This document shows, piece by piece, positions 6,879-31,770 of a DNA stretch of 32,898 nucleotides. The notes beneath the pieces were generated by a model, which saw nothing but the letters and a program-made list of their open reading frames with translations, was not told where the DNA came from and searched no databases. The stretch comes from Pseudorhodobacter aquimaris (GTDB lineage Bacteria; Pseudomonadota; Alphaproteobacteria; Rhodobacterales; Rhodobacteraceae). The stretch is from assembly GCF_001202025.1 (NCBI RefSeq), contig NZ_LGHS01000042.1:1-32898 (forward strand), given 5' to 3'. Position 1 is the stretch's first letter. Every line of letters begins with the position of its first letter. The position numbers and the translations under genes were made by a program.

Positions 6879-7658
6879 TCAGACGGTTCCGCCCAAACTG
6901 CCCTCAAGCGTGGCAAGTTCTTGCCCGCCGGCCATCAGGTCCTGAAGCTCTTCGGGGGTGATTTCCCCTTTCATTGCGGTGCCGTGGGTTTGGCCCCGGT
7001 TGAGCACGGTAAACCGATCCCCAACCGCCATAGCGTGACGCACGTTGTGGGTGATGAATACCACGGCGATGCCCTGTTTGCGCACCTTATCGATCGTTGC
7101 CAACACATTGGACGTCTGCCGTACCCCCAAAGCCGAGGTTGGCTCATCCAGGATCAGCACCTTCGCGCCGAAATGCACCGCGCGTGCAATGGCAACCGTC
7201 TGACGTTCACCGCCTGACAATGTGCCGACCGCCTGATCCGGTCCGCGCAGGTTGATGCCCATCTTTTTCATTTCGCGCATCGTGATTTCATTGGCATGAT
7301 CGTGATCGAACAGTCTGATCGGACCGAACTTCTTAATCGGCTCATTGCCCATAAAGAAATTCCGGCTGACGCTCATCAAAGGAATCATCGCAAGATGTTG
7401 GTGCACCGTAGCTATCCCGGCCTCAATCGCATCGCGGGGGCGCGTGAAATTCATCGGCTTGCCTTCAAAGATGATCTCGCCCGACGTGGGTTTATGCACA
7501 CCTGACATCGTCTTGATGAAGGTGGACTTACCCGCCCCGTTGTCACCCAGCAGACAGTGACACTCACCCCCGCGAATATCCACGGACACCCCCGCCAGCG
7601 CGATTACACTGCCAAAGTGCTTTTGGATGTTCTTCATCTGGATAATGGGATCGTTCAT
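6879..7658 (-). CDS. Sugar/inositol ABC transporter ATP-binding protein (single-domain, FrcA-like)
   Basis: The 259 residues hold one complete nucleotide-binding domain: Walker [10 protein letters not shown] (38-46), signature LSGGERQ (147-153), Walker [14 protein letters not shown] (Asp171-Glu172) and H-loop His204 (FITHN). Carbohydrate-uptake (CUT2) importers such as RbsA or MglA carry two tandem domains in about 500 residues. A single ~260-residue domain is the FrcA subtype, which must work as a homodimer. The protein energises the permease encoded immediately upstream, with TGATG stop-start overlap at 7656-7660. The setting next to iol genes and the shared operator indicate inositol or a related polyol as substrate. 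A GC hairpin follows the gene. Confidence 0.9.
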
Positions 7659-8770
7659 CAGCGTTCTCCCGTGATAATGCGCCGGATATAGGTGTTCAGG
7701 ATCACGGCTGCCAAAAGAATAACGCCAAGAAACACGCGGAACAGCGAGCTTTCAACACCGGCGAAAAATAGCCCCTGTTGCACAACCCCAAAGATAAGCG
7801 CGCCAAGCGCGGCACCGATCACCGAGCCATAGCCCCCTGTCAGCAACGCGCCACCAATGACCACCGCGATGATCGCCTCAAACTCCTTGAGCAACCCGCG
7901 ATCGGCACCTGCGGACCCGAACTCCATCACCTGGCATACGGCAAAGACTGTGGCGCAAAAGGCGGTGAACATGAACATCTGGATTTTAACCGCGTTCACC
8001 GGAACACCAGAGTTGCGTGCAGCATCGGCGTCACCGCCCGATGCGAAAATCCAGTTGCCAAAGCGTGTGCGCGTCAGCAGCCAATGGCCAAAGATGACCA
8101 GCCCCAAAGCCCAGACCATCAGCATCGGAATGCCGTCGACCACAGGTTCGCCCATCCGGTTGCCGCGCTCAAACGTGGCGATAATGCCCATATCGCCCAA
8201 CCAGTTAAAGATCGGCGCGCCGATCTTGGCCCCAAACAGCGGCGCAAGCCAATCGCCCTCGGCCGCCTCGCGAATACCGCCGATGATGGTCTTGCGCTCA
8301 ATCGTTTGGGGAATGAAAATTGTGAAACCGCGCAGGATGAACAATGTCGCCAGCGTTACGATGAAGCTTGGCAATCCGGTTTTCACGACGATATAGCCAT
8401 TCAAGGCGCCGAATGCGACGCAGATCACGAATGTCACAAGGATCGCGATCCACATCGGCCAGCCCAGGGTGACCCCGAAAATCGCGATCATCATCCCTGC
8501 AAAGCCAATCATCGACCCGACAGAGAGGTCAAACTCCCCCGATATCATCAAGAGGCAGGCCCCCACCGCAATGATCATGAATTGCGCAGAAACGACCGAC
8601 CAGTTCATGATGCCTTGCGCATTGAACATGCCGCTGTCGAAGGCAAACAAACCAAAGAAGACAAAGACCGCGACGGTGCCGACAATCCCGCCCAATTCAG
8701 GCCGCATCAACGCCTTTCGGACCTTTGACATTTCCTTAATTCTTTCGTCACCACTTGAGACGTCAGACAT
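7658..8770 (-). CDS. Sugar/inositol ABC transporter permease (FrcC/RbsC family)
   Basis: The 370-residue inner-membrane protein has about 8-10 hydrophobic segments after a charged cytoplasmic N-terminus ([20 protein letters not shown]). Family blocks are visible: [38 protein letters not shown] plus FILRG, the long periplasmic stretch around [17 protein letters not shown] (longer than in RbsC, as in FrcC-type permeases), [20 protein letters not shown], which is the ATPase-contact loop, and [19 protein letters not shown]. It pairs with the single-domain ATPase whose start codon overlaps its stop. The gene lies 84 bp after the binding-protein stop, separated by an intrinsic terminator (8805-8840), so it is probably expressed at a lower level than the binding protein. 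Confidence 0.9.
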
Positions 8771-8804
8771 CCTATTTCATCCTTGTCGTGCTATGAGGGT
8801 TCCT

Positions 8805-8840
8805 TGAAAAAAGGCGACAATAGCCCGCCGCCTTTTTTCA
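8805..8840 (-). terminator. Intrinsic terminator/attenuator between binding protein and permease genes
   Basis: TGAAAAAAGGCG (8805-8816) and CGCCTTTTTTCA (8829-8840) are perfect reverse complements, 12 bp each, with a 12-base loop. On the leftward transcript the stem ends in a run of six U, the classic intrinsic terminator form, and the symmetric A run makes it potentially bidirectional. Sitting inside the ABC operon, it should let the binding protein be made in excess with only partial read-through into permease and ATPase. Confidence 0.85.
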
Positions 8841-8854
8841 TTCTGCCAAAGAGC

Positions 8855-9805
8855 TTAGCGGTACTCGCCAGCGAACTCTTCAACCTTTTCAAGGCCATCA
8901 GCCGTCACAAACCCCGGACCGGAGTTGATGTTGTTGCCTGGCAGAACGCCGTAGCGGTGATAGTTGGTCATCACCACAACCGGCAGGTAAGCCTGCAGGA
9001 ACGGCTGTTGGTCGATACCCCAATTGATTACGCCCGCCTTGATACCTTTGATGATCTCTTCGCCAAGGTCGAATGTGCCAAAGTAGATGGCACCGGCCAT
9101 GCCGTTTTCATTCAGCGCCAATAGCGTCGGATCAGCAGAGGTTGGCCCAAGTGTCAGGATCGCGTCAGTTTTCGGGTTGGCTGAGAGGTAAGCCAACACT
9201 CGGTTCTTGATTTCGGCAGGGTCCTGACCCGCATCGATCATCTGATTGCCCAGATCCACACCCAGACCGTCCGCGAAACCTTGGCAACGCTCGGCCGACG
9301 AAGGTGAGGAGATGTAGTGGTTCACACAGAGGAACGATTCGATCCCGTCACGCGCCGCGCGCTTGCCTGCAGCCAGACCGGCGTCATATTCAGGTTGGCC
9401 GACATACATCAATGCACCAACTTCGGCTGCCTGCTCGGGCGTGCCGGTGTTCATGATGATCACATCAACACCGGAGTCCACAGCCGCCATGATTGGCCCC
9501 TTGAGAACATCATAGTCGGACAATGTGGTGATGATCCCGTCCGGCTGCGACGCCGCCGCCTGTTCGATGATGCGGGCCATATCTGCCAAGTCACCGGTTG
9601 GCGGGTTGCGGTATTCAACGGTTACATCCATCTGTTCACCGGCAAGGGCGATGCCGTTTTTGACGGTGTTCCACCAGCTGTCGGAATCTGGTGCGTGGCT
9701 TACGAGGATATATTTCTCACCCTCTGCGGCGGCTTGCGTCGCAGCCAGCAGCGGTGTCGCAGCGATTGCTGCCGTTAACAGCAGCTTTCTCATCGTAGAT
9801 TTCAT
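8855..9805 (-). CDS. Periplasmic sugar/inositol-binding protein of ABC importer
   Basis: The 316-residue type I periplasmic binding protein (ribose/galactose-binding, Peripla_BP_4 fold) has a Sec signal (MKSTMRKLLLTAAIAATPLL, cleavage about residue 27 after QAAA). The mature part starts EGEKYILVSHAPDSDSWWNT, followed by EYRNPPTGDLADMARIIEQA and GIITTLSDYDVLKGPI: a hinge-linked two-lobe layout in which aromatic and Asp residues bind the sugar ring. The start at ATG 9805 is preceded by GGGAGGAAAAC, a strong ribosome-binding site. The promoter faces the LacI operator at 9896-9911. It is first in the operon and is followed by the attenuator. The inositol substrate is inferred from the regulon, not from specific residues. 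Confidence 0.9.
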   Translation of the reverse strand: MKSTMRKLLLTAAIAATPLLAATQAAAEGEKYILVSHAPDSDSWWNTVKNGIALAGEQMDVTVEYRNPPTGDLADMARIIEQAAASQPDGIITTLSDYDVLKGPIMAAVDSGVDVIIMNTGTPEQAAEVGALMYVGQPEYDAGLAAGKRAARDGIESFLCVNHYISSPSSAERCQGFADGLGVDLGNQMIDAGQDPAEIKNRVLAYLSANPKTDAILTLGPTSADPTLLALNENGMAGAIYFGTFDLGEEIIKGIKAGVINWGIDQQPFLQAYLPVVVMTNYHRYGVLPGNNINSGPGFVTADGLEKVEEFAGEYR

Positions 9806-9872: not shown

Positions 9873-9901
9873 ATCAAAGCACGGTTTGATCTCTTTTGCA
9901 A
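9873..9901 (-). promoter_or_regulatory. Predicted promoter of the inositol ABC operon
   Basis: On the minus strand TTGCAA (9901-9896) is followed after exactly 17 bases by TTTGAT (9878-9873), four of six matches to a -10 box. The -35 hexamer is the outer half of the LacI-type palindrome, so a bound repressor would block polymerase directly. The same geometry recurs at the iolD promoter. Confidence 0.55.
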
Positions 9902-9911
9902 CCGGTTGCAA
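9896..9911. promoter_or_regulatory. LacI-type operator 1 (TTGCAACCGGTTGCAA)
   Basis: This is a perfect 16-bp palindrome with central CpG-type CCGG, the typical form of LacI/GalR-family operators. It lies between the divergent ABC operon and the lacI-type gene, 88 bases before the regulator ATG. It is identical over 16 bp to operator 2 at 14198-14213, which supports one shared regulator, most simply the protein encoded at 9999-11009. Confidence 0.85.
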
Positions 9912-9998: not shown

Positions 9999-11009
9999 AT
10001 GGCGGTAACCCTGAAAGACGTGGCAAGCCGCGCCGGTGTATCGACATCCGCCGTCTCGCGGACCTTTACCGATGGCGCTTCCGTTTCCGAAAAGATGCGG
10101 CGCAAGGTCGAAAAAGCCGCGGCGGATTTAGGCTATTCTCCCAATGCCTTGGCGTCCTCTCTGACCACGGGGCGTACCAAGCTTATCGGGCTTGTGTCGA
10201 ACAATTTTCACAACCCGATTTTTCTGCAAGTATTCGATTTGTTCACTCGCAAGCTACAGGACAAAGGGCTGCGCCCCCTGCTGATGAACCTGAGCGGTGA
10301 ACATGACGCGGCGACCTCGGTGCGGCGCCTGCAACAATATTCGGTGGACGGTGTTATTGTTGCTTCTTCAACCCTGCCACCAGAATTTTCCCGCGCATTT
10401 CGCGATGCCGGTGTGCCGGTCGTCAACAGCTTCGGGCGATTCTCGACCTCGCCGGATGTGCATGTCGTCGGGGTGGACAACTCTGAATGTGGGCGCATGG
10501 CGGCCCGCGCATTGATTGAACGCGGCTATACATCCGTTGGCTTCATGGGCGGACCAGAAGCCGCCACCTCGACCCATGACCGGTTTCGGGGATTCGCGCA
10601 GGAGCTTGCCAAACACCCCGAGGCCACGCGCCGCCATTCCTTTGCGGATGACTATTCATTTGAGGCAGGCCGTGCCGAGATGCAGCGCCTGATCGCTATC
10701 GGAGACCTGGCAGAGGCGTATTTTTGTGGTGATGATGTACTGTCCATCGGCGCGCTATCGGCATTGGCCGATGCCGGCCTGCGGGTGCCCGAAGACATCG
10801 GGATTATTGGCTTCAATGATATGGAAATGGCGGGCTGGGCCAATATCAATCTGACGACCATCGGCCAGCCGATAGAGCATATTATCAATTCGTCGGTGGA
10901 GCTGATCGTCGCTATGCTGGATGAGCCGGACCGCTATCCTGAGGTCCGGCTCTTTCCCTGCAAGCTGGTAGAGCGGGGCACTTTGCGCCCCGTCCAATCC
11001 CGTCCTTAG
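9999..11009 (+). CDS. LacI-family transcriptional regulator, probable inositol repressor
   Basis: The 336 residues begin with a canonical LacI helix-turn-helix (MAVTLKDVASRAGVSTSAVS, about residues 3-23) and a hinge helix (YSPNALASSLTTGRTKLIGL). The periplasmic-binding-protein-like effector domain follows (LVSNNFHNPIFLQVFDLFTR; VDGVIVASSTLPPEF; FCGDDVLSIGALSALADAG; GFNDMEMAGWANINLTTIGQ). It sits between the ABC importer and the catabolic genes. Two identical palindromes in the flanking promoter regions are its likely targets, including its own promoter. Rhizobial inositol clusters are usually controlled by RpiR-type IolR and Bacillus by DeoR-type IolR, so a LacI protein is a different solution. 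The stop overlaps by 4 bp the stop region of the convergent dehydrogenase gene. Confidence 0.9.
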   Translation: MAVTLKDVASRAGVSTSAVSRTFTDGASVSEKMRRKVEKAAADLGYSPNALASSLTTGRTKLIGLVSNNFHNPIFLQVFDLFTRKLQDKGLRPLLMNLSGEHDAATSVRRLQQYSVDGVIVASSTLPPEFSRAFRDAGVPVVNSFGRFSTSPDVHVVGVDNSECGRMAARALIERGYTSVGFMGGPEAATSTHDRFRGFAQELAKHPEATRRHSFADDYSFEAGRAEMQRLIAIGDLAEAYFCGDDVLSIGALSALADAGLRVPEDIGIIGFNDMEMAGWANINLTTIGQPIEHIINSSVELIVAMLDEPDRYPEVRLFPCKLVERGTLRPVQSRP

Positions 11010-12139
11010 CGATACATAGGTGGGCGCGCGTCCACCCATTCGCCTTGCTTGGTGGCTGAGGCGACTGCCTGATGTACGGCCGCCATCGACCGCAGGCCGT
11101 CTTCGGCTGTGGGCAGCCCGTCACGACGTTCGCCGCGCAGGGCTGATGCAAGATCGACATAGATATTCGCAACGGCCAATGGGAACCCTTCGGGGTGGGC
11201 AATGGCCACGCGGCTCAGGCGCTGGGCCTCATCGCTCAGCCCGCTATCGCCCTTTTCCATGATCTGTGTGCGGCCCCCGACGGGGGTGTAATAGACTTGG
11301 TTTGGCTCTTCTGAACGCCAGCGCATGCCGCCGGTTTCGCCAAACACCTGAATGTCAAATCCGTGTTGGCGCCCGATTGCGACCGAACTGGTCCAGAGCC
11401 GCCCGACCGTGCCACCTTCAAGGCGGAAATTGACCATCGCATCGTCTTCCAGCTGGCGGCTGGGGATTGTCGATGCGAAATCGGCGCTGAGACTGCGAAC
11501 GGTATCACCTGCGATAAAGCTTGCCATGTGCAGCGCGTGGATGCCGCAGTCTGCAAATTGGCCAGACACCCCGGCCATCGCGGGATCATAGCGCCAGCGC
11601 ACCCGGGGGTTATCTGCATCGGTCGCATCGCCGTGGTGGCCGTGACTGAAATTGGTCACGATAAGACGCACCTTACCCAATTGCCCACTGCGCACCATTT
11701 CGCGCATCTCGCGCACCATGGGATAGGCAGAATAGCAGTAGTTCACCGCACAAATCTTGCCGGTCTTGGCGGCGATTTTCACGATTTCCTCGCCTTCCTC
11801 TACCGTCATTGTCATCGGTTTTTCGCACAGCACGTTGAAACCGCCTTCAAGAAAGGCCTTGGTGATTTCAAAATGGGTGGAATTTGGTGTGGCCACTGTT
11901 ACCAGATCAACGCGGTCCTCGCGCCCGCTCTCACCTTTCAGCATTTCTTGCCAATCGCCATAGGCGCGGTCGGCGGCGACACCAAGGCTTTGCGCATAGG
12001 CGCGCCCTTTTTCAGCGTTATGATCCAAGGCGCCTGCCGCCAGCACAAAATTACCATCTGCAAGTGCGCCCAAGCGGTGGGCCGGCCCAATCTGGCTGCC
12101 TTCACCGCCACCGATCATGCCCCAATTCAGTTTTTTCAT
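11006..12139 (-). CDS. Gfo/Idh/MocA-family NAD(P)-dependent dehydrogenase (inositol-type)
   Basis: The 377-residue protein has an N-terminal Rossmann fold (LNWGMIGGGEGSQIGPAHRL), the EKP motif with catalytic Lys107 (NVLCEKPMTMT) and the downstream active-site pair Asp198/His201 in QFADCGIHALHM. The layout matches myo-, scyllo- or chiro-inositol dehydrogenases and related sugar oxidoreductases that oxidise a ring hydroxyl. The length (377) is larger than IolG (about 330-350) and fits the IolW/IolX/MocA-like subgroup. It is last of a leftward trio with an IolE-like protein and another Gfo/Idh enzyme, 10 bp after the middle gene. It ends tail-to-tail with the LacI gene, overlapping it by 4 bp. 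The exact substrate cannot be read from sequence. Confidence 0.87.
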   Translation of the reverse strand: MKKLNWGMIGGGEGSQIGPAHRLGALADGNFVLAAGALDHNAEKGRAYAQSLGVAADRAYGDWQEMLKGESGREDRVDLVTVATPNSTHFEITKAFLEGGFNVLCEKPMTMTVEEGEEIVKIAAKTGKICAVNYCYSAYPMVREMREMVRSGQLGKVRLIVTNFSHGHHGDATDADNPRVRWRYDPAMAGVSGQFADCGIHALHMASFIAGDTVRSLSADFASTIPSRQLEDDAMVNFRLEGGTVGRLWTSSVAIGRQHGFDIQVFGETGGMRWRSEEPNQVYYTPVGGRTQIMEKGDSGLSDEAQRLSRVAIAHPEGFPLAVANIYVDLASALRGERRDGLPTAEDGLRSMAAVHQAVASATKQGEWVDARPPMYR

Positions 12140-12149
12140 GGGTTATCCT

Positions 12150-13043
12150 TTACTTAAAGCCAATAGTTTCAAGGAACTCTCGGTTTTTGCGTGCATCACC
12201 GACCGGGTCTGGATCAAGCGTCGGATCGCAATCCTGCTCGACGGTGCACCAACCCTCAAACCCGGCGTCCAGCAGGACCTGACGCACGGCTTTGAAATCC
12301 ACGTCACCCTCGCCCAGATTGCAGAAAATCCCTTGCCCGCAGGCGTCATAGAACCCCGTGCGATTGGCGATCACATCTGCCTTTACCTTGGGGTCGATGT
12401 CTTTGAAGTGCATGTAAGAAATGCGGTTGATATGGCGCTTCATGAAGGCAACCGGATCAAAACCCGCATAGGAGTGGTGCCCGGTGTCAAAACATATCTT
12501 GAGGATGCCCTCATCCACCTCGTCCAGCAGCCGTTCCAGCTCGGGCTCAAAATCCATGAAGCCTGCAGCGTGGGCGTGAATGCCGACTGTCAAACCGTAT
12601 TCCTCGGCCCCGATCCGCGCAGTTTCTGCAATGCGATCACGATAGGCGGTCCATTCCGCCTTGTCCATTTGCTCGGCCTCGGCGGCACGTCCCGCAGTTG
12701 GCGCACGGCGCGGAGAGATCGAATCGATCAACACCAGGTGCTTGGCCCCATGCGCCTTGAGCGCCTTTGCCGTCCGGTGGGTGGCGTCCAATACGTCATC
12801 CCATGCATCAGGATCGTGATAGGGGCGAAAGACCACGCCACCAATCAACTCCAGATCATGTTCTGCCAGCGCTTCGCCCAGCAATGCAGGGTCTTCGGGC
12901 ATAAAGCCGACAGGACCCAATTCGATCCCCTTATAACCAGCGGCCGCACAGTCCTTGAGGACGGATTGCCACGTTGGGTTGCGCGGATCATCCGCAAATT
13001 CGACACCCCAGGAACAGGGGGCGTTGCCAATTCTGATTGCCAT
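12150..13043 (-). CDS. iolE: IolE-like inosose dehydratase (TIM-barrel, AP-endonuclease-2 fold)
   Basis: The protein of 297 residues is a xylose-isomerase-like TIM barrel. Metal-site motifs appear in the expected order: ELGPVGFMPED near residue 41, GIHAHAAGFMDF (His156, His158), CFDTGHHSYAG (Asp186, His189), MHFKDID (His212) and CTVEQDCDP (Glu269). The block GQGIFCNLGEGDVDF is the counterpart of the IolE FTVPGDGDIDF region. IolE dehydrates 2-keto-myo-inositol to the diketone that IolD then hydrolyses. No other dehydratase candidate is present in the cluster, which favours this role, although an inosose isomerase (IolI or IolH-like) remains possible. It sits between two Gfo/Idh genes on the leftward transcript. 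Confidence 0.8.
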   Translation of the reverse strand: MAIRIGNAPCSWGVEFADDPRNPTWQSVLKDCAAAGYKGIELGPVGFMPEDPALLGEALAEHDLELIGGVVFRPYHDPDAWDDVLDATHRTAKALKAHGAKHLVLIDSISPRRAPTAGRAAEAEQMDKAEWTAYRDRIAETARIGAEEYGLTVGIHAHAAGFMDFEPELERLLDEVDEGILKICFDTGHHSYAGFDPVAFMKRHINRISYMHFKDIDPKVKADVIANRTGFYDACGQGIFCNLGEGDVDFKAVRQVLLDAGFEGWCTVEQDCDPTLDPDPVGDARKNREFLETIGFK

Positions 13044-13062: not shown

Positions 13063-14166
13063 TCAGAACGAATTTATGTCTTGCCAGATTTCACTGCGCG
13101 ATGAGGCCATGGCGGCCGCAATCACGCGGTTCACCTCCATGCCGTCGCGAAAGGTTGGCCAGACGGGTTTGTTTGTTTCGATCGCGGCCAGAAAGTCCCG
13201 CGACTCGATGATGATCTGGTCCTGATATCCGGTGCCATGCCCTGGCCCCTGACAAAAGGGTTCGTAGTCCGGGTGCGCCGGGCCGGTCAGGATTTTGGTA
13301 AACCCGCGCGTCGCCTCTGGCCCCTCCATCCGATAGAGCCAGATGGCGTTCTGATCCTCTTGGTCGAACCGTATGGCCCCTTTGGTTCCGCTGATTTCAT
13401 AGGCATAGCCCATTTTGCGCCCCGTCGCGATTCGGCTGAAATACATCTGCCCCATTGCCCCGTTTTCAAACCGGCACATCATCTGGGCGTGGTCATCATT
13501 GGTCACCTCGCCGCCGGGGCGGGTTGTATGTACGGTCTCAACAGTTGCGTTGACGCGCGCGATCGGCCCCAAAAGTGCCAGTGCGCCATTGATCATATGC
13601 GGTGCCAGATCGCCCATTGTGCCGTTGGCCTCACCGGTGGTGCGCCATGTTGCGGGGGCGTTCGGGTCGGCGTAGAAATCCTCGGTATGTTCGCCGCGAA
13701 ACCAGGTCACATCGCCGATTGCCCCATCGGTGATCAACTGCCGAGCAAACTGGCTGGCGGGGGTGCGGATGTAGTTGAACCCAACCATATTGGCGACACC
13801 CGCCGCCTCGGCTGCGGCAACCATCGCGCGGCTGTCGTCAAGTGATGCGCCAAGCGGTTTTTCGCAAAACACTGGCTTGCCCAAAGCAAATGCGGCCTCG
13901 GCCACGTCGCGATGGGTCTCTTGCGGGCTGGCGATAATGATCGCCTCAACCTTGGGGTCGTGTACCAGGGCCTTCCAGTCATCGGTGGGCCGCGCAAACC
14001 CGTAGGCCGCGCGGTAACGCTCGGCGCTTTGGGGGGTTGAGGCGCAGACCATCTCCAGCCGTGGGCGCAGCTTTGTGTTGAAAACCGCCCCGACCGCAGA
14101 CATCGCAACGGCATGGGCTTTGCCCATATAGCCCCCACCAAGGATGCCAATTCCTATCTGTGTCAT
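13063..14166 (-). CDS. Gfo/Idh/MocA-family dehydrogenase, first gene of leftward iol operon
   Basis: The start is ATG 14166-14164, preceded by a G-rich stretch (GCGGGGGGGGAC). A much longer in-frame extension to 15189 runs antisense through iolD and past the operator, so it is rejected. The 367-residue product has the Rossmann motif GIGILGGGYMGKAHA, the EKP motif (CEKPLGASLDD, Lys103) and Asp186/His190 in GTMGDLAPHMINGALALLG. It is similar in plan to inositol and other sugar dehydrogenases; the sequence HTEDFYADPNAPATWR is typical of the longer MocA/IolG-like group. The LacI operator lies about 31 bp upstream of its ATG, so it should be co-regulated with iolD. It may oxidise an inositol stereoisomer or an inosose different from the IolG substrate. 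Confidence 0.87.
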   Translation of the reverse strand: MTQIGIGILGGGYMGKAHAVAMSAVGAVFNTKLRPRLEMVCASTPQSAERYRAAYGFARPTDDWKALVHDPKVEAIIIASPQETHRDVAEAAFALGKPVFCEKPLGASLDDSRAMVAAAEAAGVANMVGFNYIRTPASQFARQLITDGAIGDVTWFRGEHTEDFYADPNAPATWRTTGEANGTMGDLAPHMINGALALLGPIARVNATVETVHTTRPGGEVTNDDHAQMMCRFENGAMGQMYFSRIATGRKMGYAYEISGTKGAIRFDQEDQNAIWLYRMEGPEATRGFTKILTGPAHPDYEPFCQGPGHGTGYQDQIIIESRDFLAAIETNKPVWPTFRDGMEVNRVIAAAMASSRSEIWQDINSF

Positions 14167-14197: not shown

Positions 14198-14213
14198 TTG
14201 CAACCGGTTGCAA
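14198..14213. promoter_or_regulatory. LacI-type operator 2 (TTGCAACCGGTTGCAA)
   Basis: This palindrome is identical to operator 1, and here the symmetry extends to 18 bp (TTTGCAACCGGTTGCAAA, 14197-14214). It sits in the 126-bp divergent region between the leftward dehydrogenase operon and the rightward iolD operon, where one bound repressor could silence both. Confidence 0.87.
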
Positions 14214-14292: not shown

Positions 14293-16161
14293 ATGACCGT
14301 TCAACAAGACACAGTCCACCTTACGACCGCGCAAGCAATTATTCGCTGGTTGTCCAATCAGTTCATTGAGATAGATGGCGAGGAACTGCGCGTCTGCGGC
14401 GGTGGTTTTGGCATTTTCGGCCACGGCAATGTCACCTGTCTGGGTGAGGCCCTGTACGGCGTGCAGGACCAGCTTCCCCTGTATCGCGGCCAGAACGAGC
14501 AAAGCATGGGATTCGCGGCGGCGGGCTATGCAAAGCAATGGCTGCGCCAGCGGTTTATGTTCTGCACGGCCAGTGCCGGGCCAGGCACGACGAACCTGTT
14601 GACCAGTGCCGCACTGGCCCATGCGAACCGGCTGCCGATGTTGTTGTTGTGCGGCGATACGTTCCAGACCCGTCTGCCCGACCCGGTCCTGCAACAGATG
14701 GAGAATTACAACGACCCGACCTTTGGTGTGAATGATGCGTTCAAGCCGGTCGTGCGCTACTGGGATCGTATCACCCATCCCGCGCAAATCATCCAGTCGC
14801 TGCCCAATGCATTGGCGACGATGCTGGACCCTGCTGATTGCGGCCCCGCTTTTCTGGGGTTGCCGCAAGATGTGCAGGGCTGGGCATATGACTACCCCGC
14901 CGTCTTTTTTGAAAAGAAGGTCCACCGCATTCGCCGCCAATCCCCTGACATGCGCGAGATTGCCGATGCAGTCACCGTGTTGTCGGGTGCGAAACGCCCG
15001 ATGATCATTGCGGGCGGGGGCGTCCAATATTCGCGCGCGGTTGCCGAATTGACGGCTTTTGCCGAAGCGCATCAAATTCCGGTCGTAGAGACCATAGCGG
15101 GGCGGGCCAATATGCTGGCCACCCACCCGCTGAATATCGGGCCGCTTGGTGTGACAGGGTCCGACAGCGCCAATGCAATCGCCAAACAAGCCGATGTTAT
15201 TGTTGCAGTTGGCACGCGGCTTCAGGATTTCACCACAGGGTCATGGACGGCCTTTGCCAAGGATGCCCAGCTCATCTCCGTGAACGCCGCGCGCCACGAC
15301 GCGGCCAAGCACCGCTCCCTTCCTGTCGTGGGGGATGCCAAGCTGTCGCTGACCGCGTTGGGTGATGCGCTGGACTACGCAGCCCCGAGCGGCTGGGTTG
15401 CCGAGGCGCAGGGCCATCGCGCAAAATGGGATGACTATGTTGCCGAAAACGTGGCACCGGGCAATCGCCCCAATTCCTATGCGCAGGCGATCGGTGTTGT
15501 GAATGACCTATGCGATCCGCGTGACCGTGTGGTTGCCGCAGCCGGTGGATTGCCTGCCGAGGTGACAGCCAACTGGCGCACATTGGATATCGGCACCGTG
15601 GATGTGGAATTCGGGTTTTCCTGCATGGGCTACGAAATTGCGGGCGCCTGGGGGGCCCGTATCGCCCAAGCGCAACGCGAACCTGACAAGGATACCATCG
15701 TGTTCTGCGGGGACGGGTCTTATCTGATGCTCAACTCGGATATCTACTCTTCTGTCCTCACGCAAAAGAAGCTTATCATCCTTGTGCTTGATAATGGTGG
15801 CTTTGCCGTCATCAACAAGCTGCAAAACAACACCGGCAACGAAAGCTTTAATAACCTGATTGCGGACACGCCCACGGCCACCGCGCAATTTACCGTTGAT
15901 TTTGAGGCGCACGCCGGTGCCATGGGGGCCAATGTCGAAACCGCAGCCAACCCGGCAGAACTAGGCGCAGCGTTCACGCGGGCCAAAGCCGCTGAAAAAA
16001 CCAGCGTGATTGTGATGAAGGTTGACGCCTATGACGGCTGGACCAAACAAGGGCACGCCTGGTGGGAGGTCGGCACCCCCCATACCACCGAAAGCGATCG
16101 GGTGCGCGCCGCCCACGAAAATCAGGAAAGCGGGCGTTCATCCCAGCGTAGGGGGGTGTGA
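14293..16161 (+). CDS. iolD: 3D-(3,5/4)-trihydroxycyclohexane-1,2-dione hydrolase
   Basis: The 622-residue thiamine-diphosphate enzyme cleaves the cyclic diketone to 5-deoxy-glucuronate. The N-terminal pyrimidine-binding domain contains the catalytic Glu69 (YRGQNEQSMGFAAAGYA) and SAGPGTTNLLTSAALAHANR. The central domain (about 225-360) carries KRPMIIAGGGVQYS. The C-terminal cofactor domain has the ThDP motif starting GDGSYLMLNSDIY (Gly473) and ending at LDN (Asn501). The IolD-specific signatures GGFGIFGHGNVTCLGEAL and AGGLPAEVTANWRT make the assignment firm. The ATG is preceded by AAGAGGATCG. It is first in a six-gene rightward operon, under operator 2. Its stop overlaps the next start by one base (TGATG). 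Confidence 0.96.
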   Translation: MTVQQDTVHLTTAQAIIRWLSNQFIEIDGEELRVCGGGFGIFGHGNVTCLGEALYGVQDQLPLYRGQNEQSMGFAAAGYAKQWLRQRFMFCTASAGPGTTNLLTSAALAHANRLPMLLLCGDTFQTRLPDPVLQQMENYNDPTFGVNDAFKPVVRYWDRITHPAQIIQSLPNALATMLDPADCGPAFLGLPQDVQGWAYDYPAVFFEKKVHRIRRQSPDMREIADAVTVLSGAKRPMIIAGGGVQYSRAVAELTAFAEAHQIPVVETIAGRANMLATHPLNIGPLGVTGSDSANAIAKQADVIVAVGTRLQDFTTGSWTAFAKDAQLISVNAARHDAAKHRSLPVVGDAKLSLTALGDALDYAAPSGWVAEAQGHRAKWDDYVAENVAPGNRPNSYAQAIGVVNDLCDPRDRVVAAAGGLPAEVTANWRTLDIGTVDVEFGFSCMGYEIAGAWGARIAQAQREPDKDTIVFCGDGSYLMLNSDIYSSVLTQKKLIILVLDNGGFAVINKLQNNTGNESFNNLIADTPTATAQFTVDFEAHAGAMGANVETAANPAELGAAFTRAKAAEKTSVIVMKVDAYDGWTKQGHAWWEVGTPHTTESDRVRAAHENQESGRSSQRRGV

Positions 16162-17000
16162 TGAAACGCTTTACGGCCGATACCGCCAACCCGGCAGAGA
16201 TCATAGATGAGCTGCTGCACGGGGGCGGTGCTGTCGGTATTTCCGGCCTGTTCACCCCACAAGAGGTCGCCGATGCCCGCGCGATCGTTATGGCCCACTC
16301 CGAAGGCTCCGCCGAAAAGGTGACGCATTTTCAGGGTGCTGCCGCCGAAGACGGCAAGCTGGACCTGCAACGCCGCGTCTGGAACCTTTTGGCCAAGGGT
16401 GAGGTGTTCTCACGCATGGCGGCGCATCCCAAGCTGATGGAAATCCTGCGTGCCTTCCTTGGGACCGAGTTCATCATGGGCTCTATTGCCGCCAACCGTA
16501 TCCTGCCCGGCGGTCCGGGACAGGAACCGCATGTGGATTACCCTTATTGGGATTTCCATAAGCCCGAGACCCACCCCATCGGGCTTAACGGGTCATTTCC
16601 CATGAATGCGCAGGTCTCGGTGTTGCTGGACCCGTTCACACAGGAAAGCGGCGCAACCGGTTACGTGCCCGGATCGCAAAAAGAGCTGCGCTATCCGACT
16701 GCCAAAGACAATTTCTTTGACAAAGTCGCGCAGATGACCGGTCAGCCCGGCGACGTCGCCTTGTTTTACGGGGCAACGTGGCATTGTGCGATGCCCAACA
16801 ACGCAGACCATGATCGCAGTGCGATCCTGATCCAATACCTGCCCAAATGGGTCAAGCCGATGGAAGACATGCCCGGCGCACTGTCGCAAGAGTTTTTGGA
16901 CCAGGCCAGCCCGGATCTGCGTCAACTGCTTGGGCTGAATTATCCCTATCCCGAGGTGCTGGATGCGGCGCGGGGTGGTAACACAGAGGGCCGAAAATGA
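16161..17000 (+). CDS. Phytanoyl-CoA dioxygenase (PhyH)-like Fe(II)/2-oxoglutarate oxygenase
   Basis: The 279-residue protein with double-stranded beta-helix features carries the full metal and co-substrate set: His124 and Asp126 in QEPHVDYPYWDF, distal His208 in YGATWHCAMPNN and Arg219 in DRSAILIQY for 2-oxoglutarate. NAQVSVLLDPFTQESGATGYVPGSQKE is the usual PhyH core with the Pro-Gly-Ser-Gln turn. Such enzymes hydroxylate or demethylate small molecules using O2 and 2-oxoglutarate. The gene is translationally coupled on both sides (TGATG with iolD, ATGA with iolC), so it is part of inositol metabolism here, yet no known step of the iol pathway needs an oxygenase. ATG 16161 is chosen over GTG 16158 because of the overlap pattern. 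Confidence 0.9.
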   Translation: MKRFTADTANPAEIIDELLHGGGAVGISGLFTPQEVADARAIVMAHSEGSAEKVTHFQGAAAEDGKLDLQRRVWNLLAKGEVFSRMAAHPKLMEILRAFLGTEFIMGSIAANRILPGGPGQEPHVDYPYWDFHKPETHPIGLNGSFPMNAQVSVLLDPFTQESGATGYVPGSQKELRYPTAKDNFFDKVAQMTGQPGDVALFYGATWHCAMPNNADHDRSAILIQYLPKWVKPMEDMPGALSQEFLDQASPDLRQLLGLNYPYPEVLDAARGGNTEGRK

Positions 17001-17974
17001 TTCTGGACGGTATCGAGAAACGTAATTTCCTTGTGATCGGGCGCGTTGGAATGGACCTGTCGCCTGCCCCTGCAGGCACACGCACGCGCGACGCCGAGAC
17101 AATGATGGTTGCCATGGGTGGCAGCAGCGCCAATATCGCGGCGGGGCTGGTCAAACTTGGGTGCAGGTCGGCCTTGGTCACCTGCGTGTCGGATGATGCT
17201 GTGGGTTGGTATTGCGAAGGCCAGCTGGACGCCTATGGGGTTGATCGCACCCACGTCAGGCGCATCCGGGGCGAAGAACGCACCTCTCTCGCGGTATATG
17301 AGACCCGTGTGGAAGAGCATCAAAGCGTCATCTATCGCAACAACGCCGCCGACTTCAGGATGAGCATCGAGGATGTCGAGGCGGTGGATTATGCGCAATA
17401 CGGTGCCTTGATCACGGCTGGCACCGTGTTTGCCGCCGAGCCGTCCCGCGCGGCTGCATTTCGGGCGTTCGAGCTTGCCAAAGCTGCGGGGCTGCCGATC
17501 ATCTTTGACGTGGATTACCGCCCCTATAGCTGGCCATCGGCCGAGGTCGCCGCTGATGTCCTGTCGCGTGCCGGGGCTTTGTCGGATGTGATTGTCGGCA
17601 ACGACGAAGAATTCGGCTTTATGGCAGGTGATATTGCACAGGGTCTTGATAAGGCCCGTGAACTGGCGGGATCATCCGCCGGAATTGTTGTTTACAAGAT
17701 GGGCCCCGAGGGGGCTGTCACATTCGCCGATGGTACAGAAATCCGTACCGGCATCTTTCCAACCAAGGCCCTGAAACCCACAGGCGCAGGAGACAGCTTT
17801 ATGGCTGGCTTTCTGTCCGCTTTGGCGGATGGCCATCCGATGCGCAATGCTGTTTTGCGCGGATCTGCCTGTGCATCCATCGTTGTAGCCAAGCCCGGCT
17901 GCGCCCCCGCCATGCCCGACATCGCCGAGCTTGAGGCTTATCTTGCCTCACATCCCGGCCCCACCGACTGCTGA
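16997..17974 (+). CDS. iolC: 5-dehydro-2-deoxygluconokinase (PfkB family)
   Basis: The 325-residue ribokinase-fold kinase has the N-terminal substrate motif (FLVIGRVGMDLSPAPAGTRT; GGSSANIAAGLVKLG), which is characteristic of IolC in the MDL and GGSSAN segments. FDVDYRPYSWPS is another IolC block. The C-terminal PfkB signature PTGAGDSFMAGFLSAL carries the catalytic base Asp266. The enzyme phosphorylates 2-deoxy-5-keto-gluconate. Some alphaproteobacteria have IolC fused to a DUF2090 aldolase-like domain in a ~640-residue chain; this one is the short kinase only, and a separate class II aldolase gene follows two genes later. The start overlaps the stop of the dioxygenase gene by 4 bp. Confidence 0.94.
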   Translation: MILDGIEKRNFLVIGRVGMDLSPAPAGTRTRDAETMMVAMGGSSANIAAGLVKLGCRSALVTCVSDDAVGWYCEGQLDAYGVDRTHVRRIRGEERTSLAVYETRVEEHQSVIYRNNAADFRMSIEDVEAVDYAQYGALITAGTVFAAEPSRAAAFRAFELAKAAGLPIIFDVDYRPYSWPSAEVAADVLSRAGALSDVIVGNDEEFGFMAGDIAQGLDKARELAGSSAGIVVYKMGPEGAVTFADGTEIRTGIFPTKALKPTGAGDSFMAGFLSALADGHPMRNAVLRGSACASIVVAKPGCAPAMPDIAELEAYLASHPGPTDC

Positions 17975-17985
17975 AAGGAACTTCC

Positions 17986-18834
17986 ATGCATATCGCGCCC
18001 CATGACAACCAGAACAAACCTATCGTCGATGCAGATGACCCGACGGTTCCCCTGAACTATTTCAATATCGTCAAGCTTAAGGCGGGCGAGGCGTTCAACT
18101 ATCAGGTTCCCGGCTATGAAACCTGCATTGTACCCGCAACCGGCACAGTTGATGTTGATGTTGAGGGCGTGGCATATGCCGCCCTTGGCAAGCGCCGGAC
18201 CAATGTTTGGGATGGCGATCCCGAAGGCGTCTATGTGCCATCCGGCGCCAAGGTGACCATCGTCGCCAAAACCGACACTGAAACCTTTATTGCGGGGGCA
18301 AGGTACGACAAGGTTCTGGATCCTTTCGACGTACGCCAACATGATTTTGTGCAATACGGTTCTGATGATACCAAGACACATCGTTGCATAAAACACATCC
18401 TTGGTCAGAAACAGCACGACAAGGTTGGCCGCCTTTTGGTGAGTGAGCTGTTTACGGTCGGTCAGGGTGGCTGGTCCGGGTTTCCGGCGCATAAGCACGA
18501 CACAGACCGCAAGGACGCCGATGGCAACATCATCGAAACCCGCCATGACGAAACCTATAACTTCCGGTTCCGCCCCAATCACGGCGCGGGCGTGCAGATC
18601 ATCCAGCATGAAGAAGGTGTTCCCGGTGATGCCTATCAACTGATGGACGGCTCCACGATACTGCTCGGCTCGGGTTATCACCCCTGTGTCGTCATGCCCG
18701 GCTATGAGATGTATTACTTCACCATTCTCGGTGGCCATACCCAGCGCAGCTTGGTGCAGTTCTTTCAGCCAAGCCATGCGTATCAGATCGAAACGATCCC
18801 CGGCATCAAGGACATGGTCGCCAAGTTCAAATAG
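17986..18834 (+). CDS. iolB: 5-deoxy-glucuronate isomerase
   Basis: The 282-residue IolB has two cupin halves. It converts 5-deoxy-glucuronate to 2-deoxy-5-keto-gluconate. Recognisable blocks are LNYFNIVKLKAGEAF, GKRRTNVWDGDPEGVYVPSG, GGWSGFPAHKHDTD (metal ligands His169 and His171), RHDETYNFRFRP and LGSGYHPCVVMPGYEMYYF (His232). The start lies 11 bp after the iolC stop, with GAAAGGAAC as ribosome-binding site. It is fourth in the operon. No irregularity is visible. Confidence 0.95.
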   Translation: MHIAPHDNQNKPIVDADDPTVPLNYFNIVKLKAGEAFNYQVPGYETCIVPATGTVDVDVEGVAYAALGKRRTNVWDGDPEGVYVPSGAKVTIVAKTDTETFIAGARYDKVLDPFDVRQHDFVQYGSDDTKTHRCIKHILGQKQHDKVGRLLVSELFTVGQGGWSGFPAHKHDTDRKDADGNIIETRHDETYNFRFRPNHGAGVQIIQHEEGVPGDAYQLMDGSTILLGSGYHPCVVMPGYEMYYFTILGGHTQRSLVQFFQPSHAYQIETIPGIKDMVAKFK

Positions 18835-18905: not shown

Positions 18906-19736
18906 ATGACCTTGGTCACACTGAAAGATGTATTACAACCGGCCTTGCGCGACGGCTATGCCGTTGCCGGTCTGGTCACCCTCGGCTGGGAGGACATGCG
19001 CGCCTTTGTGGCGGCAGCCGAAGCGGAGGGGGTGCCCGTGATCTTGCAAGCGGGGCCATCATGCCGCGAGCACACGCCGCTTCCGGTGCTGGGCAAGATG
19101 TTTCGCCATCTGGCCGAAGCGGCCTCGGTGCCGGTCGTGGCCCATCTTGATCACGGCTACACCGCCGAGGAGTGTCGTCTGGCAATCGACAGCGGCTTTA
19201 CCTCGGTGATGTTTGATGGTTCACGCAAACCGCTTGCGGAAAACATCGATGAAACGGCCGCAATCGTCGAAATGGCCCATAGGGCAGGCGTGTCATGCGA
19301 AGGTGAGATCGGCTTTGTCGGCTATTCGGGCGGCGAAAGCTCTGCCGGTACCGACCCGGCCGAAGCTGCGCAATTTGCGCGTGGCACGGGCGTTGATGCC
19401 ATGGCGATTTCCGTTGGTAACGTCCATCTGCAACAAGACAAGGAAGGCGGGTTGGACGAGGCCCGCATCCATGCGATCGCCGCACAGACAAACGTCCCGT
19501 TGGTTATCCACGGCGGTTCCGGTGTGCCGGTGGCGCAACGCACCGCCCTTGCCCGCGGCACCAGTATCTGCAAATTCAACATCGGCACCGAATTGCGTAT
19601 GGTCTTTGGTCAGGCGCTGCGTGATGCGGTGAACGCGGATCCCGACCGCTTTGACCGGGTGCAAATCCTCAAAGAAACCCATAACCCCGTTATGGAGGCC
19701 ACACGCGGCGTGCTGCGTGCCTTCAAAGGAGCATGA
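18906..19736 (+). CDS. iolJ: Class II aldolase, 6-phospho-5-dehydro-2-deoxy-D-gluconate aldolase type
   Basis: The 276-residue zinc-dependent fructose-bisphosphate-aldolase-fold enzyme has catalytic Asp82 and zinc ligand His83 in VVAHLDHGYTAEE, VMFDGSRKPLAENI, GEIGFVGYSGGES, a zinc His in ISVGNVHLQQDKEG (His174), IHGGSGVP (His202) and the phosphate-binding CKFNIGTELRM. In this operon the expected substrate is the IolC product, cleaved to dihydroxyacetone phosphate and malonic semialdehyde. The short length and GNVH motif fit the IolJ/GatY side of the family rather than housekeeping FbaA. It begins 71 bp after iolB, the widest gap in the operon, where no terminator is evident. AAAGGTAGC precedes the ATG. 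Confidence 0.9.
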   Translation: MTLVTLKDVLQPALRDGYAVAGLVTLGWEDMRAFVAAAEAEGVPVILQAGPSCREHTPLPVLGKMFRHLAEAASVPVVAHLDHGYTAEECRLAIDSGFTSVMFDGSRKPLAENIDETAAIVEMAHRAGVSCEGEIGFVGYSGGESSAGTDPAEAAQFARGTGVDAMAISVGNVHLQQDKEGGLDEARIHAIAAQTNVPLVIHGGSGVPVAQRTALARGTSICKFNIGTELRMVFGQALRDAVNADPDRFDRVQILKETHNPVMEATRGVLRAFKGA

Positions 19737-19737
19737 A

Positions 19738-20727
19738 ATGTTGAGAGTTGGACTATTGGGCTGCGGGCGCATCGGGCAGGTCCATGCGCGATCCATCGGC
19801 CAGATCGGTACCGCGCGCGTCTCGGCTGTTGCGGATGCATTCGCCGAACCCGCGCAATTGCTGGCCGCGCAAACCGGCGCGCAGGTCATGGACAGCCATG
19901 CCCTTATCGAAAGCCAAGAGGTTGACGCAATCGTCATCGGCACCCCGACAGATACACATTATGATCTGATCCACGCAGCCGCCCGCGCCGGCAAGGCCAT
20001 CTTTTGCGAAAAGCCTGTTGATATGTCTGCTGACCGCATCCGCGATTGCATCGCGGTTGTAGAGGCGGCGGGTGTGCCTTTTATGACAGCTTTCAACCGC
20101 CGTTTTGATCCGAATTTCGCCAATGTGCAGGCCCGTATCGCCGCCGGAGAGATTGGCGCGGTTGAGATCGTGACCATCCAGTCGCGCGACCCGTCCCCGC
20201 CGCCGGTCAGCTATATCAAAAGCTCTGGCGGGTTGTTTCGCGACATGATGATCCACGATCTGGACATGGCGCGGTTTTTGTTGGGCGAAGAACCCGTCAA
20301 CATCTATGCGGTCGGCTCATCCCTTATCGATCCCGAAATCGGACGCGCGGGCGATGTCGACACCGCCGCCGTAACTCTGACCACCGCCAGCGGCAAGATT
20401 TGCCAGATATCGAATTCGCGCCGCGCGACATATGGCTATGATCAACGGATCGAAGTGCATGGAAGCAAGGGTATGCTGCGCGCGGAAAACGTTCTGGAAA
20501 ACTCGGTGGAAATCGCAACGGAAGCGGGTTTTCGCAAAGCGCCCGCGCAACATTTCTTTCTGGAACGCTATGAGGCGGCCTATCGCGCTGAAATGCAGTA
20601 TTTCCTACGCGGTCTGCTTGAGAATACGCCGTTCTCTCCGGGGATTACTGACGGATTGCGCGCCCAACTGCTTGCGGATGCGGCAACACAGTCGTTGCAG
20701 CAGGGGGTGGCGATATCCGTTGCTTGA
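19738..20727 (+). CDS. iolG: myo-Inositol 2-dehydrogenase
   Basis: The start is ATG 19738, one base after the aldolase stop, with AGGAGC as ribosome-binding site; a longer in-frame start inside the aldolase gene is rejected. The 329-residue Gfo/Idh/MocA protein has the Rossmann motif VGLLGCGRIGQVHARS, the EKP motif (FCEKPVDMS, catalytic Lys92) and the IolG hallmark sequences FNRRFDPNF and GGLFRDMMIHDLDMARFLLG, in which Asp169 and His173 complete the active site. It matches the short IolG group in length and motifs and is the best candidate of the three dehydrogenases for NAD-dependent oxidation of myo-inositol to 2-inosose. It is last in the iolD operon. Confidence 0.93.
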   Translation: MLRVGLLGCGRIGQVHARSIGQIGTARVSAVADAFAEPAQLLAAQTGAQVMDSHALIESQEVDAIVIGTPTDTHYDLIHAAARAGKAIFCEKPVDMSADRIRDCIAVVEAAGVPFMTAFNRRFDPNFANVQARIAAGEIGAVEIVTIQSRDPSPPPVSYIKSSGGLFRDMMIHDLDMARFLLGEEPVNIYAVGSSLIDPEIGRAGDVDTAAVTLTTASGKICQISNSRRATYGYDQRIEVHGSKGMLRAENVLENSVEIATEAGFRKAPAQHFFLERYEAAYRAEMQYFLRGLLENTPFSPGITDGLRAQLLADAATQSLQQGVAISVA

Positions 20728-26429: not shown

Positions 26430-26566
26430 GGTGCCCCAATCCTCAAACGAGCCTTTACATTACATGGGCTTACATTTTGTTCAATAATTATTTTCTTTAT
26501 TTAGCCTAGCTTTCAATGCAGTGTGTCACAGATGTAATTCCCCGAAACAATTGGCAAGAAAACACA

Positions 26567-28030
26567 ATGGATGATGCTTTTCGATCGACACGCGCACTGA
26601 AAACCCAAGCCTATTTTGCGGGCGCATGGCGCAGCGCGTCCAATGGGGCAACGACCGCTGTTATCTGCCCTGCCACGGGCAAGGAAATCGGCACTGTGCC
26701 GCGCTTGACCGCGGCGGACGTGCATGTGGCGATCGACGCGGCGGCAGAGGCTTTTGTCGGATGGTCGGCGCGCACGGCGGCCGATAGGGCACAGGTTCTG
26801 AAACGCTGGCACGGTTTGATCCTGCAAGAGCGCGAGGCTTTGGCCCGTATCCTGACATCCGAACAAGGCAAGCCGCTTGCAGAATCCCGCGCCGAGATTG
26901 ACATTAGCGCCGCCTATATCGAGTGGTTCGCCGAGGAAGGCCGCCGTGTTTACGGTGATATCATCCCGTCGCCTGCACCGGGGCGCCAGACAATCGTGAC
27001 CAAACATCCTGTCGGTGTGACCTGTGCCATTACGCCGTGGAATTTTCCGGCCTCGATGATCACGCGCAAGCTGGCACCTGCGCTGGCCGCCGGTTGCACG
27101 ATGCTGGTCAAACCGTCAGAGCGTACACCCTTCATTGCCCTCGCCTTGGTCGAACTGGCAGAAGAAGCGGGGGTCCCGCCCGGTGTTATAAGCGTTCTGA
27201 CCGGCTCTTCACGCGAGATTATCAAGGTGATGACGGATAGCGCGGTTGTGCGGAAGTTGTCGTTTACCGGCTCCACTGCGGTTGGAAAGGATCTTATCCG
27301 GCAATGTTCGGACACCGTAAAGCGGATGTCGATGGAGCTGGGCGGCAATGCTCCGGTGATCATTTTTGATGACGCCGATGTGGACGCCGCCGTGAACGGG
27401 TTGATGGCGTTGAAATTCCGCAACAGTGGTCAAACCTGTGTCTGTGCGAACCGTATTTTCGTGCAGCGCAACATCGCTGAAAAGCTGTCAGAAGCCTTTG
27501 TGGAGAAGGTCCGCGCATTAAAAGTCGGTGCAGGCGATCAGCCCGGTGTACAAATCGGGCCATTGATCAACGCGGGCGCGGCACAGGACATGGGCCGGAT
27601 CGTCGCCCGCGCGCAGGAGCAAGGCGCGCAGGTGCTTGTGGGGGGCGGTGAGCCCGTGCCGGACAGTGCTTTTTACCTGCCCACAGTCCTTGCAGGTGTG
27701 ACGCCGGATATGGATGTTGCGCGGGATGAAATCTTTGGCCCTATCGCCCCTTTGTTGGTCTTTGACGATGAGGCAACCGTAGTGGCGCAGGCCAATGACA
27801 CGCCTTACGGGCTTGCCTCTTACACCTATACCCGCGATCTGGCGCGTGCGTGGCGGGTTTCTGACGCGCTGGAATACGGGATGGTGGGCATCAACGAGGT
27901 TGCCATCTCAAACGAGGTTGCACCCTTTGGTGGTGTCAAGGAGTCAGGCTTTGGCCGTGAGGGATCGCGCTACGGTCTCGATGAGTACCTCGATATCAAA
28001 TATCGTTGCATGGGCGGGCTTTCTGCCTGA
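26567..28030 (+). CDS. gabD: NAD(P)-dependent aldehyde dehydrogenase, succinate-semialdehyde dehydrogenase type
   Basis: ATG 26567 gives 487 residues, the usual GabD length; the in-frame ATG 26516 adds an unconserved 17-residue tail. Motifs in order: TPWNFPASMITRKLAPALAA (Asn159), VKPSERTPFIAL, FTGSTAVGKDL, MELGGNAPVIIFDDADVD (general base Glu257), RNSGQTCVCANRIFVQ with catalytic Cys291 and the neighbouring Cys293, DEIFGPIAPLLVF and EVAPFGGVKESGFGREGS. The Cys-Val-Cys pair matches the redox switch of succinate-semialdehyde dehydrogenases. Related substrates such as glutarate semialdehyde or sulfolactaldehyde cannot be excluded. Divergent from the LysR gene; hairpins follow its stop. Confidence 0.85.
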   Translation: MDDAFRSTRALKTQAYFAGAWRSASNGATTAVICPATGKEIGTVPRLTAADVHVAIDAAAEAFVGWSARTAADRAQVLKRWHGLILQEREALARILTSEQGKPLAESRAEIDISAAYIEWFAEEGRRVYGDIIPSPAPGRQTIVTKHPVGVTCAITPWNFPASMITRKLAPALAAGCTMLVKPSERTPFIALALVELAEEAGVPPGVISVLTGSSREIIKVMTDSAVVRKLSFTGSTAVGKDLIRQCSDTVKRMSMELGGNAPVIIFDDADVDAAVNGLMALKFRNSGQTCVCANRIFVQRNIAEKLSEAFVEKVRALKVGAGDQPGVQIGPLINAGAAQDMGRIVARAQEQGAQVLVGGGEPVPDSAFYLPTVLAGVTPDMDVARDEIFGPIAPLLVFDDEATVVAQANDTPYGLASYTYTRDLARAWRVSDALEYGMVGINEVAISNEVAPFGGVKESGFGREGSRYGLDEYLDIKYRCMGGLSA

Positions 28031-29092: not shown

Positions 29093-29449
29093 TTTCTGTC
29101 CTCCCTGCCGGACCACTGTCGTTTCAAGCGCAAGTGGTCCTGTTGTAATATCACCCGCCTGATCCGCTTGGTTTGGATCATGTGCTGGCGGATGCTTCCT
29201 GGTTTTCAACCTTGGAAACGTTCCGAATGAATTCTTTGGAGATTTGGCTGTGCGTGTCATGTTCCAGACGAAGGCCGTTGAAACATTGCGGCCTCTGCCA
29301 AATTCCTCCCATATGGTGCAGGGTAATTGTAATTACTGCGTACGGAAAGTTAAAATTTATATTCGTCTAGTTAAATTATACTTACATAATATGTGGCGGC
29401 GGCCAAAGGATGTCGCTGCGAGTAACGACGTTTTCCAAGGAGGCGGACC
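29093..29449. other. Intergenic region with AT-rich promoter stretch
   Basis: These 357 bases between two leftward genes hold no plausible gene. Bases ~29320-29395 are very AT-rich (GTAATTGTAATTAC at about 29324, then TTAAAATTTATATTCG) and probably contain the promoter for the hydroxyacid dehydrogenase. I see no terminator with a U run after the nitroreductase gene. Confidence 0.5.
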
Positions 29450-31573: not shown

Positions 31574-31770
31574 GCGGGCTTGCCTTTGCGCGATATGGAG
31601 ATGATGCAGTGCCACCCCACCCGCTTGTTGGTGGGGAACACACATGGATGAATGGCACCGTGCTAGAAGAAGGCTTGCGTGGTGCCGACGGGCAGTTGCT
31701 GAACGCTAACGGACATTGTTTCATGTTCGACTATGACGGGCGCGGCGAAAGTGCCACGCGGGACGTCGTC
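31574..31770 (+). pseudogene. frdA: Internal fragment of fumarate reductase/succinate dehydrogenase flavoprotein subunit
   Basis: AGLPLRDMEMMQCHPTRLLV in one frame, then after a +1 shift GEHTWMNGTVLEEGLRGADG and QLLNANGHCFMFDYDGRGES followed by ATRDVVS. This is the substrate-site region of the flavoprotein: DMExxQxHPT, the EGxRGxGGxLLN block, and RDVVSR, where the catalytic Arg follows. The match is cut off at the Ser of DVVS by a junction with the antisense end of an IS3-family transposase. The N-terminal FAD domain is absent as well. Confidence 0.72.

Follow-up and report, generated by a model that had tools for sequence, protein, structure and literature searches.

The inositol catabolism operon of Pseudorhodobacter aquimaris encodes, between iolD and iolC, a protein of the PhyH family that is predicted to be an Fe(II)/2-oxoglutarate-dependent oxygenase. 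Comparison across genomes supports a conserved place for this gene in the iol operon, in many Rhodobacterales and in some Rhizobiales. The enzyme is probably an accessory oxygenase that lets substrates enter inositol breakdown by a peripheral, oxygen-dependent route. The window analyzed is the full 32,898-nt stretch of contig NZ_LGHS01000042.1.

The PhyH open reading frame (16158-17000, plus strand) encodes 280 aa from GTG 16158 or 279 aa from ATG 16161, and the ATG is the more likely start. The protein passes the threshold of Pfam family PhyH (PF05721; E 2.9e-22, 80.4 bits versus a cutoff of 22) and is the only match to itself in its own genome. Residues H125, D127, H209, and R220 (GTG numbering; H124/D126/H208/R219 from the ATG) are invariant in an alignment of 58 sequences with a mean column identity of 76%. 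We take these residues to be the HxD...H metal triad and the 2-oxoglutarate-binding Arg of the family. A sequence-only reading of this DNA had described a PhyH-like protein with this residue set intact, which the Pfam match and the alignment bear out. Gene decay is ruled out by the intact catalytic residues and the level of conservation.

The best AlphaFold2 model has a mean pLDDT of 84.7 and a pTM of 0.86 (the remaining four models, 70.8-78.6), with residues 130-134 and the C-terminus below 50. Its best structural matches in Foldseek are Fe(II)/2-oxoglutarate dioxygenases (E 1.6e-19 to 7vbq), and the 50 matches listed have TMq values of 0.71-0.78 and identities of 16-24%. The modeled protein thus shares its fold with solved members of the family. 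TlxJ (7vbq), SptF (7eys), PrhA (5ybm), and DhiD (8zyb) show kinship in both fold and sequence, at 16-24% identity among those 50 matches. Most of these solved enzymes presumably act on fungal terpenoids or alkaloids. Searches of PDB sequences and folds for a clue to the substrate gave none among the matches listed, and no match listed is named for an inositol substrate.

The iolD stop codon (TGA 16159-16161) overlaps the PhyH ATG at 16161, upstream of which AGGGGGG (16150-16156) is a likely ribosome site, and the PhyH stop codon (TGA 16998-17000) overlaps the iolC ATG (16997-16999). The codon overlaps at either end of the gene, already pointed out from the sequence, are confirmed by the coordinates. 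On the plus strand, iolD (trihydroxycyclohexane-1,2-dione acylhydrolase, 14293-16161; TIGR04377, 790 bits versus a cutoff of 715) and PhyH are followed by iolC (5-dehydro-2-deoxygluconokinase, 16997-17974; TIGR04382, 324 bits versus 300), an iolB-like gene (17986-18834; PF04962, E 3.6e-68; TIGR04378, 147.6 bits, below the cutoff of 205), an iolJ-like class II aldolase gene (18906-19736; PF01116, E 2.7e-73), and an iolG-like inositol 2-dehydrogenase gene (19651-20727), identified by Pfam and by similarity to the inositol 2-dehydrogenase 4hkt (E 1.6e-107, 362.7 bits). The true start of this last gene is probably further in than 19651, because matches begin at residue 31.

The divergent arm, on the minus strand, consists of genes for a scyllo-inositol-dehydrogenase-like GFO/IDH/MocA protein (13063-14100; 5ya8, E 8.9e-84), an iolE-like inosose dehydratase (12150-13043; 3cny IolE, E 7.5e-28; TIGR04379, 180 bits, below the cutoff of 290), and a third GFO/IDH/MocA dehydrogenase (11006-12139; 3v5n, E 8.5e-79). 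The best NCBIfam match of the scyllo-inositol-dehydrogenase-like protein is levoglucosan dehydrogenase, at 257 bits, far below the cutoff of 650. Beyond this trio lies a plus-strand gene for a LacI-family protein (9999-11009; PF00356 and Peripla_BP_3), presumably the regulator of the cluster; relatives 48-50% identical to it adjoin the GFO-PhyH gene pair in five Luteibacter loci. Divergent from lacI are minus-strand genes, assigned by Pfam, for a sugar ABC transporter (6879-9805) comprising a binding protein (8855-9805), a permease (7658-8770), and an ATPase (6879-7658). At E <= 1e-20 the binding protein has a single PDB match, the CUT2-family monosaccharide binding protein 4ru1. The cluster shares iolD, C, B, E, G, and J-like genes with the canonical bacterial iol pathway and differs from it in the PhyH oxygenase, the scyllo-inositol-dehydrogenase-like gene, and the third GFO gene. 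To our knowledge, the canonical route contains no oxygenase.

A methylmalonate-semialdehyde dehydrogenase of the iolA type is encoded on a different contig. The genome has one iolD, and two more iolD-like matches are just 25-26% identical. Elsewhere in the window, a sulfolactaldehyde-reductase-like gene (28193-29260, minus strand; 340 bits versus a cutoff of 348) adjoins a succinate-semialdehyde-dehydrogenase-like gene (26516-28030, plus strand; 626 bits versus 646), and an integrase core domain (31663-32445, minus strand) perhaps marks a mobile element close to the window's end.

Between the two divergent arms we identified a 16-base palindrome, TTGCAACCGGTTGCAA (14198-14213), with a second exact copy between lacI and the ABC transporter genes (9896-9911); these are the only two exact matches in the window, versus 0 in 100 shuffles. 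The palindrome is exact in 55/58 intergenic regions of PhyH-bearing operons and 16/18 of PhyH-less operons (counts that omit L053 and L071, where the intergenic interval could not be located, and also the window, L160, and L161). It is a probable LacI operator, and PhyH by position belongs to the unit that it would control. A palindrome resembling that of the window, TTGCAAGCGCTTGCAA, lies between the PhyH relative and the scyllo-inositol-dehydrogenase-like gene in the 11 Rhodanobacteraceae loci described below; palindromes upstream of Burkholderiaceae PhyH genes were inspected by eye.

The position of PhyH is conserved across genomes. Eight of 295 sampled genomes from the same family carry PhyH at E <= 1e-40 (the genome of the window counted), all eight in the order iolD-PhyH-iolC. 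From a scan of a contig collection we analyzed the best 80 of 109 PhyH relatives, a choice of nearest relatives that favors linked loci, and iolD adjoins PhyH in 63 of these 80. At one more locus (L034) iolC adjoins PhyH and the contig ends before iolD; the 16 others are unlinked. In linked loci PhyH always lies between iolD and iolC, and the gap between PhyH and iolC has an approximate median of -1 nt (70 loci). Linked copies are mostly from Rhodobacterales, with others in Hoeflea and further Rhizobiales and in one gammaproteobacterial bin (L078). The sequence-only reading had proposed a search of other Rhodobacterales iolD-iolC loci for the same insertion, and had named as evidence against itself, on the genomic side, a gene found here only in this strain and elsewhere beside unrelated genes. 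The insertion instead recurs, and the 8/8 family carriers and 63/80 linked loci rule out a chance insertion in one strain.

Unlinked relatives have other partners. In Rhodanobacteraceae, the PhyH relative faces a scyllo-inositol-dehydrogenase-like gene in 11/11 loci examined (six Luteibacter loci from the best-80 scan and five more), and a LacI gene is present in 10 of them, the contig of the other (L076) being cut. PhyH is paired there with this dehydrogenase gene and not with iolD, iolC, or iolB, and the iol loci of five Luteibacter genomes (L162-L166) contained no PhyH match. In three Caballeronia loci (L083, L084, and L086) the PhyH relative faces mocD-mocE-mocF-like genes, and in L193 such genes lie ~4.6 kb from PhyH. 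Against the MocE model the ferredoxin of L086 reaches 130 bits, short of the cutoff of 136, and the desaturase-like protein of this locus shares 49% identity with a plasmid-encoded protein that is annotated as MocD-like. At other Burkholderiaceae loci there is an SDR gene or there are sugar-acid genes; of 25 query genes, four loci contain PhyH alone or little besides. None of nine Burkholderiaceae loci within the best 80 of 109 matched the iol enzymes of the window, a point against a role in inositol entry. In a plasmid collection, only distant or partial PhyH relatives were found (five records); two Caballeronia plasmids (NZ_CP049157.1 and NZ_CP049317.1) match PhyH residues 167-280 only, in two pieces, near a MocD-like gene. 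A Tateyamaria copy (L068) is not part of the iol operon and has genes for a sulfatase, a radical SAM protein, and a Kelch protein nearby; its genome also has a PhyH-less operon of the window's layout (L175).

Operons without the oxygenase indicate that it is accessory. We hand-picked 20 candidate PhyH-less loci from a list of iolD scores. The window's layout, including the divergent arm, recurs in 17 of them, and the genomes concerned have no PhyH match at E <= 1e-40. Not all of these operons are complete in the iolG-like gene, since it is present after the aldolase gene in 11/17 and absent in 6/17. The remaining three loci (L129, L138, and L139) have another iolD type, 54% identical to that of the window, and a different gene order. 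On a quick iolD tree built from 81 proteins (PhyH linked in 63 and not in 18; support below 80 on 27 of 77 inner branches), the PhyH state changes at least 15 times, gain or loss alike. Given these 17 operons and the repeated changes of state, we regard PhyH as accessory rather than a core step. A step required by every such operon is ruled out by the 17 operons, and their gene content favors a peripheral role, with PhyH possibly dispensable for myo-inositol breakdown.

Since linked copies are always found between iolD and iolC, repeated loss is the simplest reading of the probable history of PhyH. PhyH and iolD distances correlate across 63 loci (r 0.52, a value reached in 0/2000 permutations). 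A well-supported branch of the PhyH tree sets apart the Luteibacter copies, and another the Burkholderiaceae copies; the branch uniting the linked copies with L068, at a support of 76, is not firm. Identities of iolC are in places out of step with those of iolD (iolD is 82% identical to that of the window in each of L010 and L015, whereas their iolC identities are 66% and 84%, respectively), hinting that iolC may have been replaced in some loci.

Across the three families sampled, iolD is present in 24/24 PhyH carriers. The comparison is 8/8 versus 151/295 background genomes with iolD above the cutoff in the window's family (hypergeometric p 4e-3, or 8e-3 minus its own genome), 8/8 versus 19/117 in Rhodanobacteraceae (p 1e-7), and 8/8 versus 60/150 in Burkholderiaceae (p 5e-4); with previously known carriers removed (3/8 and 4/8, respectively), p is 3e-5 in Rhodanobacteraceae and 0.02 in Burkholderiaceae. 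These p values are upper estimates of strength because kinship is uncorrected, and kinship inflates the co-occurrence figures. In three carriers (G032, G055, and G184) the iolD call rests on a genome-table E-value and a linked gene. Unlinked PhyH copies follow the same pattern, with iolD above the cutoff in 14/14 genomes tested (the 16 unlinked loci less L076 and L083).

What might such an oxygenase do? Many operons with this layout do without it, but otherwise it is kept in the unit, and elsewhere it is paired with an inositol-type dehydrogenase; we therefore favor an entry step for a modified cyclitol, a substrate that we consider somewhat more probable than all others together. The ABC transporter would presumably import the modified cyclitol, the oxygenase would oxidize it in an O2-dependent reaction to inositol or an inosose, and the dehydrogenases of the cluster together with IolE, D, B, C, and J would then degrade the product. 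An oxygen-dependent entry into the iol pathway, proposed earlier from the sequence, fits the conserved operon position, the PhyH-less operons, the pairing with the scyllo-inositol-dehydrogenase-like gene, the mocDEF-like neighbors, and iolD in 24/24 carriers. For a modified cyclitol, the likeliest chemistry is O-demethylation, because O-methyl-inositols are common modified cyclitols and mocDEF-like genes neighbor PhyH in Caballeronia; we put this forward tentatively. Hydroxylation of the O-methyl group would lead to loss of formaldehyde. That the Caballeronia loci keep mocDEF-like genes as well is an unexplained point against PhyH as a demethylase.

Within the entry role, it is rather unlikely, though worth weighing, that the oxygenase acts on an amino-cyclitol (converting inosamine to inosose by oxidative deamination) or hydroxylates a deoxy-cyclitol such as quercitol. 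The mocDEF-like neighbors in Caballeronia suggest rhizopine-like compounds, and the only NCBIfam match of the transporter binding protein is the rhizopine model NF052284 (274 bits, below the cutoff of 420). However, that match tells little about PhyH, because the other type of inositol operon (L145 and L146) also has binding proteins, 80-87% identical to the window's. Kanamycin B dioxygenase oxidatively deaminates an amino sugar. It is among the weak PDB sequence matches of PhyH (E 0.007), but is outranked there by many other oxygenases.

The partner dehydrogenase invites another explanation, in which the substrate of the oxygenase is a sugar or lactone other than a cyclitol, one that this LgdA-like enzyme handles and through which the link to inositol genes would arise. 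The nearest solved relative of the dehydrogenase, 5ya8, also oxidizes L-glucose (PMC5969746), its best NCBIfam match is the levoglucosan model mentioned above, and sugar-acid genes lie downstream in some Burkholderiaceae loci. The location of PhyH between iolD and iolC in linked loci and the occurrence of iolD in all 24 sampled carriers make this improbable. Modification of a core-pathway intermediate between IolD and IolC, to which the overlapping codons of the iolD/iolC-flanked gene might point, is highly improbable given the 17 PhyH-less operons, the pairing with a dehydrogenase in Rhodanobacteraceae, and the PhyH-free Luteibacter iol loci.

The modified-cyclitol entry step has a conceptual counterpart in rhizobia, where the rhizopine ferredoxin oxygenase MocDEF, a demethylating enzyme, also feeds an inositol-type pathway. 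A 1998 model of rhizopine breakdown reportedly includes a ferredoxin oxygenase. The MocDEF proteins (FA_desaturase, ferredoxin, and reductase) are nevertheless unrelated to PhyH, whose only Pfam match is PhyH, and a MocD query had no match in the window's genome while recovering its own genome as a positive control.

O-methyl-inositols are major plant solutes. We know of no defined enzyme that starts O-methyl-inositol breakdown in such bacteria, and searches of one open-access library listed none. That library (subscription papers and preprints being outside its scope) also listed no paper linking PhyH to inositol breakdown. The available portions of PMC10107442, PMC6637203, PMC5132102, PMC9430895, PMC6668481, PMC5969746, and PMC5789663 contain no description of a PhyH gene in inositol breakdown, and the word "phytanoyl" is absent from the available text of the survey PMC9430895. 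One open-access paper names phytanoyl-CoA dioxygenase and inositol genes, but in separate table rows. In one study of Mimosa pudica root exudate, pinitol reached a higher concentration than any other component (PMC5789663).

Overall, a more doubtful possibility is that these proteins form a new subfamily of 2-oxoglutarate oxygenases, spanning alpha-, beta-, and gammaproteobacteria, that would demethylate pinitol and related O-methyl-inositols and supply the iol pathway with the products, a different solution from rhizobial MocDEF. As a rare and clearly delimited set of oxygenases whose occurrence follows that of iolD, they offer one specific gene and a short list of candidate substrates.
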